A stretch of DNA of 64,000 nt. It comes from Clostridiales bacterium FE2011. GTDB lineage: Bacteria; Bacillota; Clostridia; Christensenellales; Aristaeellaceae. The first letter of the stretch is position 1, and each line of letters begins with the position of its first letter. This document shows, piece by piece, positions 8,325-55,882 of this stretch. The translations under genes were made by a program, and so were the position numbers. The stretch spans positions 2,604,001 through 2,668,000 of the forward strand of contig CP069418.1 of NCBI GenBank assembly GCA_017569305.1, in the 5' to 3' direction. The notes under the pieces were generated by a model. That model was not told where the DNA came from. It saw only the letters and a list, made by a program, of their open reading frames with translations, and did no database searches.

Positions 8325-9257
8325 TTATTGAAGCTTTTCAATCAGGACTTCCGGATAAAGCCGGTCATAATCCGCGGGATCGAAGTCCCCGGTGAAGAGG
8401 CTGAGGGCGTTGGCTGCGGAAACCGCCAGGGCCATGCGGAAGGTTTCCTCTATGGGCAGGCGGCGGGCAAAACCCACGGCAAAACCGGCCACCATGCTGT
8501 CTCCGCAGCCGACGGTGTTCCGGGGGGTGATTTTCGGCGGCCTGCCGTGGAAAACACCCTGGTCACAGGCCAGTAAGGCGCCTTCTTCTCCCATGGAGAG
8601 CACCACATAGGGTATGCCGTCCCTGTGCAGGCAGGTGAGGGCGTTCACAGCTTCTGCCCGGCCGGAAATGCTGTGACCGGTCAGCTGGGCAATTTCATCC
8701 TCGTTGGGCTTGATGAAGAAAGGCTTTTCCTTCACGGCGGCGATCAGCCGGCCGCCGCTGGTATCAACCAGGACAGGAATGCCGTTGGCACGGCTGCGGC
8801 GGATGAGCTCACAATAGAAATCCTCGGGTACGCCCTGGGGGACGCTGCCGCTGATGGTGACCACATTCGCTTCCGGGAGACGGGCAGTGAAATCAGAAAG
8901 GAAGCGGTCGATATCCGCCTGCGTGACAGGCTGACCGGGCTCCAGGTACTCTGTGGAGCGGCCGTTGGACAGGTCCCAGCAGTTGATGCAGCTGCGGGTT
9001 TCCCCCTGTACATGGGTGAAGGCACAGCGAACCAGGGGAGAGGAGATCAACGACTCCAGGTACTGCCCGTTGAACCCGCCGACAAAGCCCATGGCGGTGA
9101 CGGGTTCCTGCAGCTTCGCGGCTACACGGCTGACGTTCAGACCCTTGCCGCCGGCAGTGTTGTGGACCTCCTTCACCCGCATGACGGTTTCAGGATGGAT
9201 GGATTCCATCAGATAGAGTTTATCAATGGAGGTGTTCAGCGTTACAGTAAGGATCAT
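8325..9257 (-). CDS. 1-phosphofructokinase / tagatose-phosphate kinase family (PfkB fold)
   Basis: A 310-residue PfkB-type sugar kinase of the FruK/LacC group, which phosphorylates ketohexose monophosphates to bisphosphates. Seen: the N-terminal strand ILTVTLNTSID, the substrate-binding AGGKGLNVSRVAAKL and the C-terminal anion hole and catalytic base NTVGCGDSMVAGF. The start at 9257 is preferred over the ATG six bases upstream, because GGAG would be only three bases from the latter. No fructose PTS gene is adjacent. It lies divergent to a tagatose-bisphosphate-type aldolase operon, which suggests it supplies the bisphosphate that the aldolase cleaves. Confidence 0.85.
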   Translation of the reverse strand: MILTVTLNTSIDKLYLMESIHPETVMRVKEVHNTAGGKGLNVSRVAAKLQEPVTAMGFVGGFNGQYLESLISSPLVRCAFTHVQGETRSCINCWDLSNGRSTEYLEPGQPVTQADIDRFLSDFTARLPEANVVTISGSVPQGVPEDFYCELIRRSRANGIPVLVDTSGGRLIAAVKEKPFFIKPNEDEIAQLTGHSISGRAEAVNALTCLHRDGIPYVVLSMGEEGALLACDQGVFHGRPPKITPRNTVGCGDSMVAGFAVGFARRLPIEETFRMALAVSAANALSLFTGDFDPADYDRLYPEVLIEKLQ

Positions 9258-9357
9258 ATGCATCGCTCTCCGAATCGTTTCATCATGCAAATAATGTAAA
9301 TGAGAAAAGGAAGAAAGTCAAGTATATAAATAAGTTGAGCGCAAGACAAAAAAAGGA

Positions 9358-9387
9358 TTGACAAGGAATGAAAACCGGTCGTATAAT
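9358..9387 (+). promoter_or_regulatory. sigma-A promoter of the aldolase operon
   Basis: A perfect TTGACA (9358-9363) and a perfect TATAAT (9382-9387) are separated by 18 bases, a near-consensus promoter that needs repression rather than activation. A palindromic operator lies at the expected start site. Confidence 0.85.
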
Positions 9388-9396
9388 GTGAAAAAA

Positions 9397-9410
9397 GCGA
9401 AACGATTCGC
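9397..9410. promoter_or_regulatory. LacI-type operator, class A
   Basis: GCGAAACGATTCGC is an even palindrome around a central CG, as in LacI-family operators. It starts ten bases after the -10 box, a classical repression position. Close copies occur at 17821-17834 and 34019-34032. It does not fit the CcpA cre consensus. Confidence 0.65.
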
Positions 9411-9433
9411 TTTTGCGAAAAGAGGGATATGGA

Positions 9434-10273
9434 ATGGCGTTCGTCACTACCGGAGAGATGTTGAAGAAAGCTCAGGAAGGCGGCTATGCCATCGGCGCGT
9501 TCAATGCGGAAAACCTGGAAATGGTCCAGGCTATTATTGCTGCGGCTGAGGCGGAGAACGCTCCTGTGATGATACAGACTACGCCCGGTACGCTGAAATA
9601 CGCGGGACCGAAATGTTTTGCCGGCATTGTGAGCCGGATGGCACGGGACGCAAAGGTGCCTGTGGCACTGCACCTGGATCACGGAAACAGTTATGAACTG
9701 GCGGAAGAGTGTGCCCGGGAAGGATATACTTCCCTGATGATCGACGGATCCAAGCTTCCGTATGAAGAGAACATCGCGCTGACCCGACGGGTGGTGGCTA
9801 TGGCCTGCGGCCTGCCGGTGGAAGCGGAACTGGGAACGGTGGGCGGCAAGGAAGACGGCATGGAAGCCAAACCCCAGTACACCGATCCGGATGAAGCGGC
9901 TGACTTTGTGAACCGGACCGGCATCAGCAGCTTTGCGGTGGCGATCGGCACAGCCCACGGAGTATACAAGGGAGAACCGAAGCTGGATCTGGACCGGCTG
10001 TCCGCAGTGCGGGAAAAGGTCAGCATTCCGCTGGTGCTCCACGGAACCTCCGGCGTACCGGAAGACCAGGTGAGGGAATGCATCCGCCGGGGCATCTGCA
10101 AGGTGAACTACGCGACGGATCTGCGTATTGCCTTTACGGCCGGTGTGAAGAAAGCCATCGGGGAACAGCCGGAGGCGTTTGACCCGAAAAAGTACCTGGC
10201 GGAAGGCCGCAAGGCTGTACAAAGCCGGGTGCAGGAACTGATCCGGCTGCTGGGGAGCAGCGGAAAAGCCTGA
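9434..10273 (+). CDS. class II ketose-bisphosphate aldolase (GatY/KbaY/FbaA family)
   Basis: A 279-residue zinc aldolase that splits ketose 1,6-bisphosphates or related ketose phosphates into DHAP and an aldehyde. The catalytic and metal residues are visible: HLDHGNS with Asp82 and zinc ligand His83, Glu132 in EAELG, His175 in AIGTAHG and His203 in LHGTSG. The HGVYKGEPKLDLDRL segment resembles tagatose-bisphosphate aldolases as well as FbaA. ATG 9434 has AGAGGG upstream. It is the first gene of a five-gene operon with a kinase, two oxidoreductases and a mutarotase, so a catabolic tagatose-type role is more likely than glycolysis. Confidence 0.88.
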   Translation: MAFVTTGEMLKKAQEGGYAIGAFNAENLEMVQAIIAAAEAENAPVMIQTTPGTLKYAGPKCFAGIVSRMARDAKVPVALHLDHGNSYELAEECAREGYTSLMIDGSKLPYEENIALTRRVVAMACGLPVEAELGTVGGKEDGMEAKPQYTDPDEAADFVNRTGISSFAVAIGTAHGVYKGEPKLDLDRLSAVREKVSIPLVLHGTSGVPEDQVRECIRRGICKVNYATDLRIAFTAGVKKAIGEQPEAFDPKKYLAEGRKAVQSRVQELIRLLGSSGKA

Positions 10274-34130: not shown

Positions 34131-34895
34131 ATGACGTACAAGGAGATCCTGGCGGCTGCGATGCGGCAGTCTGCCATTGACTGTTCCTGCGGGGAAGAGG
34201 ACTTCCGCGGGGTTACCCATGTATTCGTTGAAAACAAGGCATCGGAACAGGCAAGCAAGTTCCTGAAAAGCCCCAATACCTGCAGGCTGGTCTCCTACGG
34301 CTCCAACGTCGTGGCCTCCTGCCGGAAGGACCTGATCCCGGAAGTGGAAGCGTTTGTGAACGGACAGGAAAAGTTTCACCGGTGCTTTGAGCCGATGGCC
34401 ATCTATGAGCTGAACAAAATCCTGCAGAAGGCAGGCGCCCGGGTGGCCTGGATGCACAGCTTCTACCTGCCGGACCCGGACGCGGTTTTCAGTGCGGAAC
34501 TGACCTGTCCCTATGAGATGCGGGAAATGCATCCGGAGGATTTCACGGATTTGTATGTGCCGGAATGGAGTAACGCGCTGAGCAGTCCGGCGAAGAAGCA
34601 CCTGGACATGCTGGGTTACGGCGCTTATGACAGGGACAAGCTGATCGGCCTGGCGGGATGTTCCGATGACTGCGTGGAGATGTGGCAGATCGGGATTGAC
34701 GTGCTGCCGGAATACCGGCGCAAAGGCGTGGCATCCGCGCTGACCAACAGGCTGGCACGGGCGATCTTTGAACATGGGAAAATCCCGCTGTATGCTGCGG
34801 CCTGGTCCAACGTGCGGTCTATCCGGAACGGGATGAAGAGCGGCTTCAGGCCGGCATGGGCAGCGCTCGAGGCCGAGAAAATAATGAATAATTAA
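34131..34895 (+). CDS. GNAT-family acetyltransferase-like protein
   Basis: A 254-residue protein. ATG 34131 has AGGAG eight bases upstream. The C-terminal third is a GNAT fold: the acetyl-CoA loop DVLPEYRRKGVASALTNRLA, then YAAAWSNVRSIRNGMKSGF. The N-terminal half (about 1-130) is an extra domain with six cysteines. This arrangement recalls the GNAT_acetyltran group of Firmicutes, whose substrates are unknown. It is monocistronic and followed by the hairpin island. An acetylation role in the neighbouring sugar pathways is possible but not shown. Confidence 0.75.
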   Translation: MTYKEILAAAMRQSAIDCSCGEEDFRGVTHVFVENKASEQASKFLKSPNTCRLVSYGSNVVASCRKDLIPEVEAFVNGQEKFHRCFEPMAIYELNKILQKAGARVAWMHSFYLPDPDAVFSAELTCPYEMREMHPEDFTDLYVPEWSNALSSPAKKHLDMLGYGAYDRDKLIGLAGCSDDCVEMWQIGIDVLPEYRRKGVASALTNRLARAIFEHGKIPLYAAAWSNVRSIRNGMKSGFRPAWAALEAEKIMNN

Positions 34896-35015
34896 TACTT
34901 AAGACTTTGCGATCGCCGTATTCCATTTCTGCATCGTCATAGACTCGCAGAAATGGACGGCTGTAGCATGGGCGAAGCTCTGACAACTGCCAGTGGCAGA
35001 TATTTTGTCAGAGCT

Positions 35016-35079
35016 GAGGTCAAGCGAAAGGGAGTGAGCTCCCCAGTGGGGAGTCACGACCATTGAGCTTGCGGATAGG
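35016..35079 (+). repeat. dispersed two-core repeat, copy 1
   Basis: Core 1 is GAGGTCAAGCGAAAG, then a hairpin CTCCCCAGTGGGGAG, then core 2 CATTGAGCTTGCGGATAGG. It is the most diverged of the three copies. Confidence 0.55.
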
Positions 35080-35258
35080 CATTAGCAGTGGATGGCTCGG
35101 CGTTAGCAGCGCTAAAGCGCTGACGCCTGCATGGACGATCTGTTACCGGCACTAAAGTGCCGACAGATCAGTCTGAAGCACTGATGCCTCCTCAATAACT
35201 TAAAAATGGCGGAAAAAACTGCTTCTGAAGGAAGCAGTTTTCAAGTAATTATATTGTT

Positions 35259-35469
35259 TTTTGCTTCGCAAAAGAATGATATGTTGCTGCGCAACATGAT
35301 ATATCATACGCAACCTCAATCGGCGCGACTGTCCACTGGACAGCTCGCTTGTTTCGGTTGACCTCACCTCCAACGGAATTTCAGCCACTGGCCGCCCTCG
35401 GAGATTCGCCTTAATGCGAATATGATAGGTTCGACTGCGTCGAACATGATATGTTTGCCTGCGGCAAAC
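35259..35469. repeat. short palindromes separated by ATGATAT linkers
   Basis: Palindromes TTTTGCTTCGCAAAA, GTTGC-TGC-GCAAC, TTCGA-CTGCG-TCGAA and GTTTGCC-TGC-GGCAAAC are each flanked by ATGATA or ATGATAT. Copy 2 of the two-core repeat splits the series. The linkers are constant and the stems vary. Confidence 0.6.
35309..35365 (-). repeat. dispersed two-core repeat, copy 2 (inverted)
   Basis: On the minus strand, GAGGTCAACCGAAACAAGC is followed by the hairpin CTGTCCAGTGGACAG and GCCGATTGAGGTTGCG. It matches copy 3 closely in both cores. Confidence 0.65.
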
Positions 35470-35544
35470 GTGATTAGTTACTGACTGACTTTTCGGGATG
35501 ATGATGCAGAGGAAATGGTGTTCCGATTAAGGCATTCGGGAATA

Positions 35545-35580
35545 AAAATCAGCCCTCTCCGACGATCCCGGAGAGGGCTG
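35545..35580 (-). terminator. terminator after the small protein gene
   Basis: On the minus strand CAGCCCTCTCC pairs with GGAGAGGGCTG (35570-35580 with 35550-35560) and is followed by ATTTTTATT. Confidence 0.85.
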
Positions 35581-35595
35581 AATGTTTGAACTGAA

Positions 35596-35832
35596 TTACG
35601 CTACGGCATTCAGGTAGTTGAAGAGTTTCATTTCATCCTTATAGGAGGAAGCGAACAGTTCGGGCTCGTTGATGCCTTCGCCACGAATCATTTCTGCGAT
35701 ACCCAGGTAACGCTGTGCAGGATCTTTCAGGTCATATTGATCACCCTGCGCAGTGACAACCAGCACGGAAGCGTCGCAGCGGTCGAGTGTTTCTTCAAAC
35801 AGTTTCAGTTCATCATTATTTCTGATCTTCAT
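35596..35832 (-). CDS. small conserved-looking protein of unknown function
   Basis: A 78-residue acidic protein. ATG 35832 has AAAGGAG eight bases upstream; the in-frame GTG three codons earlier has no spacing for a site. It begins MKIRNNDELKLFEETLDRCD and ends KLFNYLNAVA, with a predicted helix-strand-helix pattern and the block YDLKDPAQRYLGIAEMI. It is monocistronic with its own terminator, which argues for a real gene. I recall similar small proteins in other Clostridia but cannot name a function. Confidence 0.65.
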   Translation of the reverse strand: MKIRNNDELKLFEETLDRCDASVLVVTAQGDQYDLKDPAQRYLGIAEMIRGEGINEPELFASSYKDEMKLFNYLNAVA

Positions 35833-36011
35833 TGTATTCACTCCTTTGCGATCAGAATGTCCGGAAGAAGTTGTACGGCTCCTTCCGTATAACTATGATA
35901 CAACAAAGAAATGGCAATACAATCGAAATTCAGGCGATTTCAGGGACAAATTGTACAGGTTTGATAATACATGTCATATCTGGCCAAAAACAGACACATG
36001 GGTTTTGACGG

Positions 36012-55705: not shown

Positions 55706-55882
55706 GTAGGAAGTAGGAAGTAGGAAGTAGGAGGGGAACGATCCGAGAGGTGACCCAGTGGGTCATTCGCCGTAGGCGAAGACGAGGCGAGTGAGTCAAC
55801 CGAAACGAGCAATGCGACCGCTCCAAGGGAGCAGTGCGACGATTGAGGTTGCGGATAGGAGTTTTTCTACTACTTTAACCTT
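55706..55882. repeat. intergenic repeat segment after parB, including two-core repeat copy 3
   Basis: The segment opens with four tandem GTAGGAA units (55706-55732) and closes with TTCTACTACTTT, a partly inverted version. Between them are the hairpins TGACCCAGTGGGTCA (55751-55765) and TTCGCCGTAGGCGAA (55766-55780). Then comes copy 3 of the dispersed repeat (55793-55859): core 1 GAGTCAACCGAAACGAGC, hairpin CTCC-AAGG-GAG, core 2 CGATTGAGGTTGCGGATAGG. The same cores occur at 35 kb. Confidence 0.65.

Follow-up and report, generated by a model that had tools for sequence, protein, structure and literature searches.

Non-autonomous mobile elements that carry no gene and fold into hairpins are a known kind, represented by the REPINs and the PATEs. 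The REP hairpins of E. coli need their bulge for activity and work with a GTAG guide according to PMC8266576, and compensatory change is described for REPINs in PMC3116915. Transposition of IS200/IS605 elements uses the lagging-strand template and involves binding of subterminal hairpins, as PMC6006769 presents it, while the Gut-1 motif (RF01706) is listed in PMC2864571 as a noncoding RNA known only from the human gut. We examined a hairpin-rich island within the window, by which we mean the whole 64,000-nucleotide stretch analysed (2604001-2668000 of the 3,562,493-bp single contig that makes up its genome, G000), and we think it fairly probable that the island is a nest of non-autonomous, gene-less mobile hairpin elements that are conserved by the shape of their DNA. 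While the kind is familiar, the tandem bulged design, the variable stems, the nesting in bulges and loops and the missing enzyme place these elements outside the families tested.

The island (34896-35545) is flanked by a CDS ending at 34895 that we judge to be GNAT-like and by a small CDS on the minus strand (35596-35841), both names being our judgement. That no gene explains it, as the original prediction held, is borne out: a mechanical list gives a single ORF of at least 60 aa (62 aa, 35200-35388, minus strand), and no convincing protein gene over the island was found in the ORF list of the window. The scan for tRNA and tmRNA genes was likewise empty, and phage and plasmid records contained no match to 34800-35700. 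Folded as RNA, 34896-35245 reaches -157.7 kcal/mol compared with -109 +/- 4.8 in 100 shuffles (z -10.1), and folding as DNA gives a z of -9.96; the hairpins are real and far beyond chance. The island is more composite than a single array of hairpins, comprising three kinds of dispersed repeat, H, B and D, that we told apart by reading the copies in G000, where the first half of the island has 55 matches and the second half 43. The stretch 34908-35195 is one repeat, H, with a B inside it, and 35253-35480 is a D with another B. In the literature, judged by titles and the openings of abstracts with few subscription papers among them, we found no description of H or B.

H extends from TGCGATC to CTCAA and is filled end to end by two tandem bulged hairpins, H1 and H2, so that a hairpin stands at each end. 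Each has a 3-base bulge on its 5' side, and the two are joined by the linker TGTAGCATGG, which is conserved before H2 and contains, 5' of H2, a GTAG or GTAA that is partly paired in the consensus fold. Simple copies measure about 90-108 bp. The copy in the window (34908-35195, plus strand), identified from its dispersed copies, model R2 and covariation, is a long form with four bulged hairpins, broken by B, and was aligned with eight other long forms. Its H1 (34909-34967, plus strand; alignments A2 and A3, RNAalifold) has a lower stem at 34915-34919/34957-34961, an ATT bulge at 34920-34922 and an upper stem at 34923-34932/34947-34956; the stem predicted at 34923-34956 therefore exists as the upper stem of a further bulged hairpin. 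H2 (35078-35188, plus strand; nine homologous long forms) has a lower stem at 35078-35082/35184-35188, a TAG bulge at 35083-35085 and an upper stem at 35086-35090/35179-35183, and corresponds to a predicted enclosing hairpin of the same plan, which is present (35078-35090 with 35179-35188) apart from a start placed one base off. The loop of H2 carries H3 and H4, the hairpin pair from which the original prediction started. Both are present as described on the plus strand, in the sequence and in the nine-copy alignment: H3 (35099-35127) as GGCGT-TAG-CAGCGC-TAAA-GCGCTG-ACGCC, and H4 (35137-35169) as GATCTGT-TAC-CGGCAC-TAAA-GTGCCG-ACAGATC, with a TAG and a TAC bulge, respectively, and a TAAA loop in each. 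Since H3, linker and H4 together (35093-35174, plus strand) match the H model (R2, 33.5 bits, E 6.8e-7), we read them as an H-like unit inside H.

H copies sit mostly in AT-rich tandem tracts between genes. The tract that hosts the window copy occupies 34896-34907 and resumes at 35196-35209 (plus strand); in a relative, G035, it is uninterrupted and followed by a terminator-like hairpin. In the window such a hairpin follows the tract at 35215-35241 (plus strand; seen in the RNA fold, absent from the list of the terminator and promoter scan), similar ones follow several H copies by eye, and the scan places another, with no strand assigned, beside the downstream small CDS (35549-35581). H and D elements are hosted by degenerate tandem tracts with AT- or GA-rich units of 7-8 bp, in several types (AACTTAAA, AATTCAT, AACAATT, GTAGGAG), that separate genes from terminator-like hairpins; such tracts are seen at H flanks, for example at L017, L029, L042 and L093, and at the empty sites L100, L127 and L133. 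Around one terminator-like hairpin in G000, Rfam Thr_leader matches below threshold lie on either strand (L017:1710-1808; 43.6 and 34.2 bits, gathering 55).

Model R2 matches 42 times in G000 and 29 times in G035. A DNA search with 34896-35250, which scored no more than 11 candidates per genome and counted matches to any part of the query, gave matches in 28 of 61 genomes, all of the same genus (28 of its 37, G000 included), and in none of the 24 genomes from other families of the order. Exact-pattern matches that carry names come from Clostridia metagenome-assembled genomes of goat omasum and water buffalo rumen and from RUG10975, in which we take RUG to stand for rumen. Across 196 genomes of the class, with 20 candidates scored in each, R2 matched in 7 including G000. 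The matches in the other six, from four other families, are weaker (best E 1.1e-8 to 4.7e-4) and have the two-hairpin plan in a different sequence, several of them lying, by eye, beside or inside other palindromic repeats.

B is about 107 bp long, folds differently from H and occurs both alone and inside H. The first copy in the window, at the foot of H2 (34970-35077, minus strand, ends uncertain by a few bases; model R1 127.1 bits), is one of many dispersed copies and accounts for the predicted stem at 34976-35015, which is real and is one stem of this different repeat. The second (35306-35410, plus strand; R1 99.2 bits at 35305-35411) is inverted relative to the first and interrupts the D array at its third palindrome, and a third, diverged copy is found at 55760-55857 (minus strand; 36.4 bits, E 1.9e-7). 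B is also seen at the bulges or feet of other H copies; elsewhere its sites share little (43 copies). Among 291 genomes of the class R1 matched in G000 only, although with 13 candidates per genome scored under strict filters the absence of B from other genera is weak. In IMG/VR, 21 stretches match a B pattern, and 7 of them hold 9 B matches with E <=1e-5. Two of these stretches, L314 and L331, look phage-like by their ORFs in our judgement, and L322 repeats the host locus L003; at L314:9610-9716 a B lies inside a 272-aa ORF (9134-9952), presumably lysin-like, and is read through in frame. In another genome (L253, G064) a B-like element stands, by eye, just beyond the right end of an IS200-type insertion sequence. 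A pseudoknot considered for B (GGTC with GACC) was dropped, as copies with TTGAGA or TTGAATT are, by eye, without it.

In D, short palindromes follow one another in arrays, with (A/G)TGATAT as the joining sequence. The window array is interrupted by the second B, such that its first part lies at 35253-35305 and its second at 35405-35480 (both plus strand), the first bases of the latter being common with the end of B by comparison of copies; at other loci the array is intact (L042, L044, L048, L051, L052, L056, L058). D resembles Gut-1 in that one D-type array of G000 exceeds the gathering threshold of 50 (L044:93-179, 58.8 bits), with the window copy below it (26.1 bits at 35252-35307) and L004:543-631 and 1723-1808 at 42.2 and 40.8 bits in the order listed. 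Unlike Gut-1 as listed, it occurs in a rumen genus, where its palindrome arrays are dispersed and receive B insertions.

The occupancy of these sites differs between relatives. The two genes that flank the island are the same in G035 (97% and 100% identity over the compared parts), while the roughly 690 bp that separate them in G000 correspond there to roughly 80 bp, which hold the AT-rich tandem tract and a terminator-like hairpin. In the orthologous sites of G035, G001 and G008 (L100, L101 and L102), neither H nor B is detected by models R1 and R2, and D is absent by eye. In a further site comparison, an H carrying B stands in G002 (L103) at the same gene where G005 (L104) gives no match, and at L017 H is present in G000, G001 and G035, with no match in G008, G002 or G004. 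There, B occupies in G035 the position that the TAC bulge of H2 has in G000 and G001, neither of which has B at this point. H and B insertions are thus polymorphic between close relatives, which, with the copy number and the nesting, supports the mobile hairpin element that had been offered as one option. No clear target duplication was found in the comparison of G005 and G002, where tandem tracts blur both ends and target.

H is also biased in orientation. In 8-kb samples of G000 the GC skew is for the most part positive from 1.8 to 3.5 Mb and negative from 0.03 to 1.7 Mb, with exceptions at 2.16 and 2.25 Mb and values near zero at 1.74-1.77 Mb; in G035 it switches sign within 0.85-1.02 Mb and again within 2.72-2.89 Mb. 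With replichore borders set after seeing the sampled skew (1.75 Mb and the contig ends in G000; 0.935 and 2.805 Mb in G035), 36 of 42 copies in G000 and 25 of 29 in G035 run along the skew (one-sided binomial P 1.4e-6 and 5.2e-5), copies that are not independent because orthologous ones are common to both genomes and some lie close together. Fifteen of 22 copies have their upstream ORF on the H strand, all 15 along the skew, so gene orientation may be a cause of the bias; these ORFs were picked crudely, some being short or distant. Of the 7 copies with an upstream ORF on the opposite strand, 6 nevertheless run along the skew, and a 23rd copy (L015), which lacks an upstream ORF, runs against it. 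For B, 8 of 13 listed copies run along the skew by eye. Provided that the skew marks replichores, the strand of H as written would serve as lagging-strand template. The dnaA gene (G000:C1:3136510-3136713, at 3.136 Mb) does not coincide with a skew switch: the contig ends, where the skew changes sign, are about 0.43 Mb away and the switch near 1.75 Mb about 1.4 Mb.

The pairing in these repeats is kept while the letters vary. In the nine homologous long-form copies the three hairpins first noticed have 98.7% of 306 pair cells paired, compared with at most 38.5% in slid controls; 8 of 34 pairs show compensatory change, and further pair types do not exceed the shuffles (416 of 500 reach the value). 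The lower stem of the 35137-35169 hairpin is invariant in these copies, so that covariation is uninformative there. For H at large, 33 of 56 pattern-found copies were aligned. Of the remainder, 16 contain B, have a long loop or lack a clear H2, and most of the other 7 entered alignment A3 (38 copies), which was made later. Of 29 pairs, 16 are compensatory, 98.5% of cells are paired compared with at most 49.2% in slid versions, and the further pair types are reached by 26 of 500 shuffles. The B alignment has 44 of 60 rows; of the 16 left aside some are chimeric or tandem, some nearly duplicate other rows (L062 and L097, for example) and a few are irregular. RNAalifold gives 33 pairs, 28 with compensatory change, and 97.9% of 1419 cells are paired, whereas shuffles reach 77.1% and slid versions no more than 44.7%. 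Since shuffles do not preserve relatedness, the slid versions are the firmer control. The outcome named beforehand as fatal to the proposal, no covariation and no occurrence in relatives, came out the opposite way on both counts.

What kind of molecule the pairing serves can be judged from the mismatches. A fold kept as RNA tolerates G-U on its own strand and not A-C, whereas a fold kept at the level of DNA has no such preference. As a control we took 29 TPP riboswitches of the same genus (31 matches listed, one without a locus and one partial being omitted), a modest control with only 13 pairs in its alignment, in which 314 cells are Watson-Crick, 54 G-U and 3 A-C, a G-U share of 14.7%. B has 1369 Watson-Crick, 20 G-U and 9 A-C cells (G-U share 1.4%). 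H has 900, 39 and 8, respectively (4.2%), and 32 of its G-U cells are a single invariant outer T-G pair, without which 7 G-U stand against 8 A-C (0.8%). G-U being rare in both, the fold looks conserved as DNA in H and, less firmly, in B, where some strand asymmetry persists. Recognition of DNA secondary structure, another option raised at the outset, is a likely reason for the covariation. We make no such claim for D, where 23 G-U and 1 A-C were counted in 6 copies, a small alignment in which RNAalifold paired parts of the linkers; this count differs from those of B and H and speaks against extending the DNA reading to D or to Gut-1.

It is conceivable that H and B are instead structured RNAs, 3'-UTR modules or small RNAs dispersed in some way, and that covariation keeps an RNA fold. 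The strong compensatory change in both would fit, as would the position of 15 of 22 H copies downstream of a same-strand ORF, the excess of G-U over A-C in B, and the D arrays, with their own G-U excess and their match to a proposed noncoding RNA. We nevertheless consider this quite unlikely, given that G-U is rare in H and B and in H no commoner than A-C, unlike in the TPP riboswitches, that the scan for sigma-70-like promoters around the island gave one match, which is the level in shuffles, that the Rfam scan of the whole window gave no match at gathering threshold, H and B included, and that presence of the repeats differs between close relatives. The structured RNA among the options of the original prediction is accordingly disfavoured, leaving its interpretation partly supported. 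The covariation could also be a mutational by-product, with template switching in palindromes copying one arm onto the other and producing perfect stems without selection. The few one-sided changes (17 in B versus 286 two-sided) and the rare G-U fit such arm copying, and in H conservation is lower in unpaired than in paired columns (0.78 versus 0.88). In B, however, unpaired positions are the more conserved (0.88 versus 0.78), and H preserves its linker and the position of the bulge, none of which arm copying explains, and we hold this reading to be quite unlikely.

A more specific proposal is that H is a REP/REPIN-type repeat of the RAYT (TnpAREP) proteins of the genus and is moved by them in trans. 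Y1 domains (PF01797) occur 3 times in G000 and in 41 matches in 16 of 20 further genomes, and many of the proteins, ORFs of 245-341 aa, are RAYT-like in our judgement. H shares with REP and REPIN sequences the small, gene-less, intergenic palindromic form, the bulged hairpins, the compensatory change and a putative movement by a Y1 enzyme in trans (PMC3116915 and PMC8266576), and the bulge and GTAG guide in the latter have a possible parallel in the bulges of H and its conserved linker. However, the two hairpins of H are tandem rather than inverted and differ in sequence, its stems vary widely, and its GTAG, in copies that have one, falls in a linker that is paired. Moreover, model R2 found no H up to E = 1 in the 33 Y1 loci tested (30 of the 41 further matches and the 3 of G000, hence 33 of 44 matches; loci mostly of about 3.3 kb), no RAYT gene stands beside an H copy in the loci tested, and the three RAYT-like genes of G000 adjoin, by eye, different repeats. 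These genes, at L089-L091, have repeats of their own, GGGGACGGTTCT or its complement at L090 and L091 and a GGGGACTGTCCCC-type at L089, where a 190-aa transposase-like ORF, present in two inverted copies, flanks the gene on both sides. We therefore regard membership in the RAYT system as rather unlikely. The IS200-type Y1 elements that we looked at have ends of their own and not those of H, and with no H at the loci tested the resident Y1 transposases are not supported as its source. PATEs and IS200/IS605 elements resemble H in having hairpins at both ends and may also resemble it in showing no clear target duplication and a GC-skew bias (PMC6006769), but no tnpA gene with H ends appears in the 33 loci, and the sites of H and B are AT-rich tandem tracts or other palindromes and not one short motif. 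Among the H copies viewed, none was noticed to have a gene between its hairpins. Thus, an IS200/IS605-like or REP-like mechanism serves as an analogy and does not imply membership.

Returning to mobile elements conserved by DNA shape, H probably moves, by this analogy, as single-stranded DNA with the help of a putative enzyme that acts in trans and recognises the bulge. The written strand of H would fold into its hairpins while the lagging-strand template is single-stranded, and the putative enzyme, made elsewhere, would recognise the stem, the 3-base bulge and the linker, and not the letters of the stem. It may then excise the H unit and paste it into another AT-rich tract in fixed orientation. 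B would be a second such element with a different fold that often lands in H, sometimes exactly at the bulge of a hairpin. The mover enzyme, once found, would add a structure-guided mobile system that inserts at hairpin bulges.

Structured RNAs are usually proved by covariation, yet here strong covariation with few G-U pairs points to folds of DNA. The ratio of G-U to A-C is a cheap test and could re-sort other covarying motifs of gut and rumen bacteria. A broader and much more tentative proposal is that of a Clostridia-wide class of twin bulged hairpins with nearly free stem letters that are recognised by shape and moved as folded single-stranded DNA by a putative enzyme, bulges and loops serving as landing sites for other hairpin elements. 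If so, hairpins would nest in hairpins, and some of the covarying "RNA" motifs of the gut could be DNA elements. With dozens of copies per genome in the two genomes counted, located near genes and terminators and differing between relatives, these elements shape the ends of genes in the bacteria that carry them.
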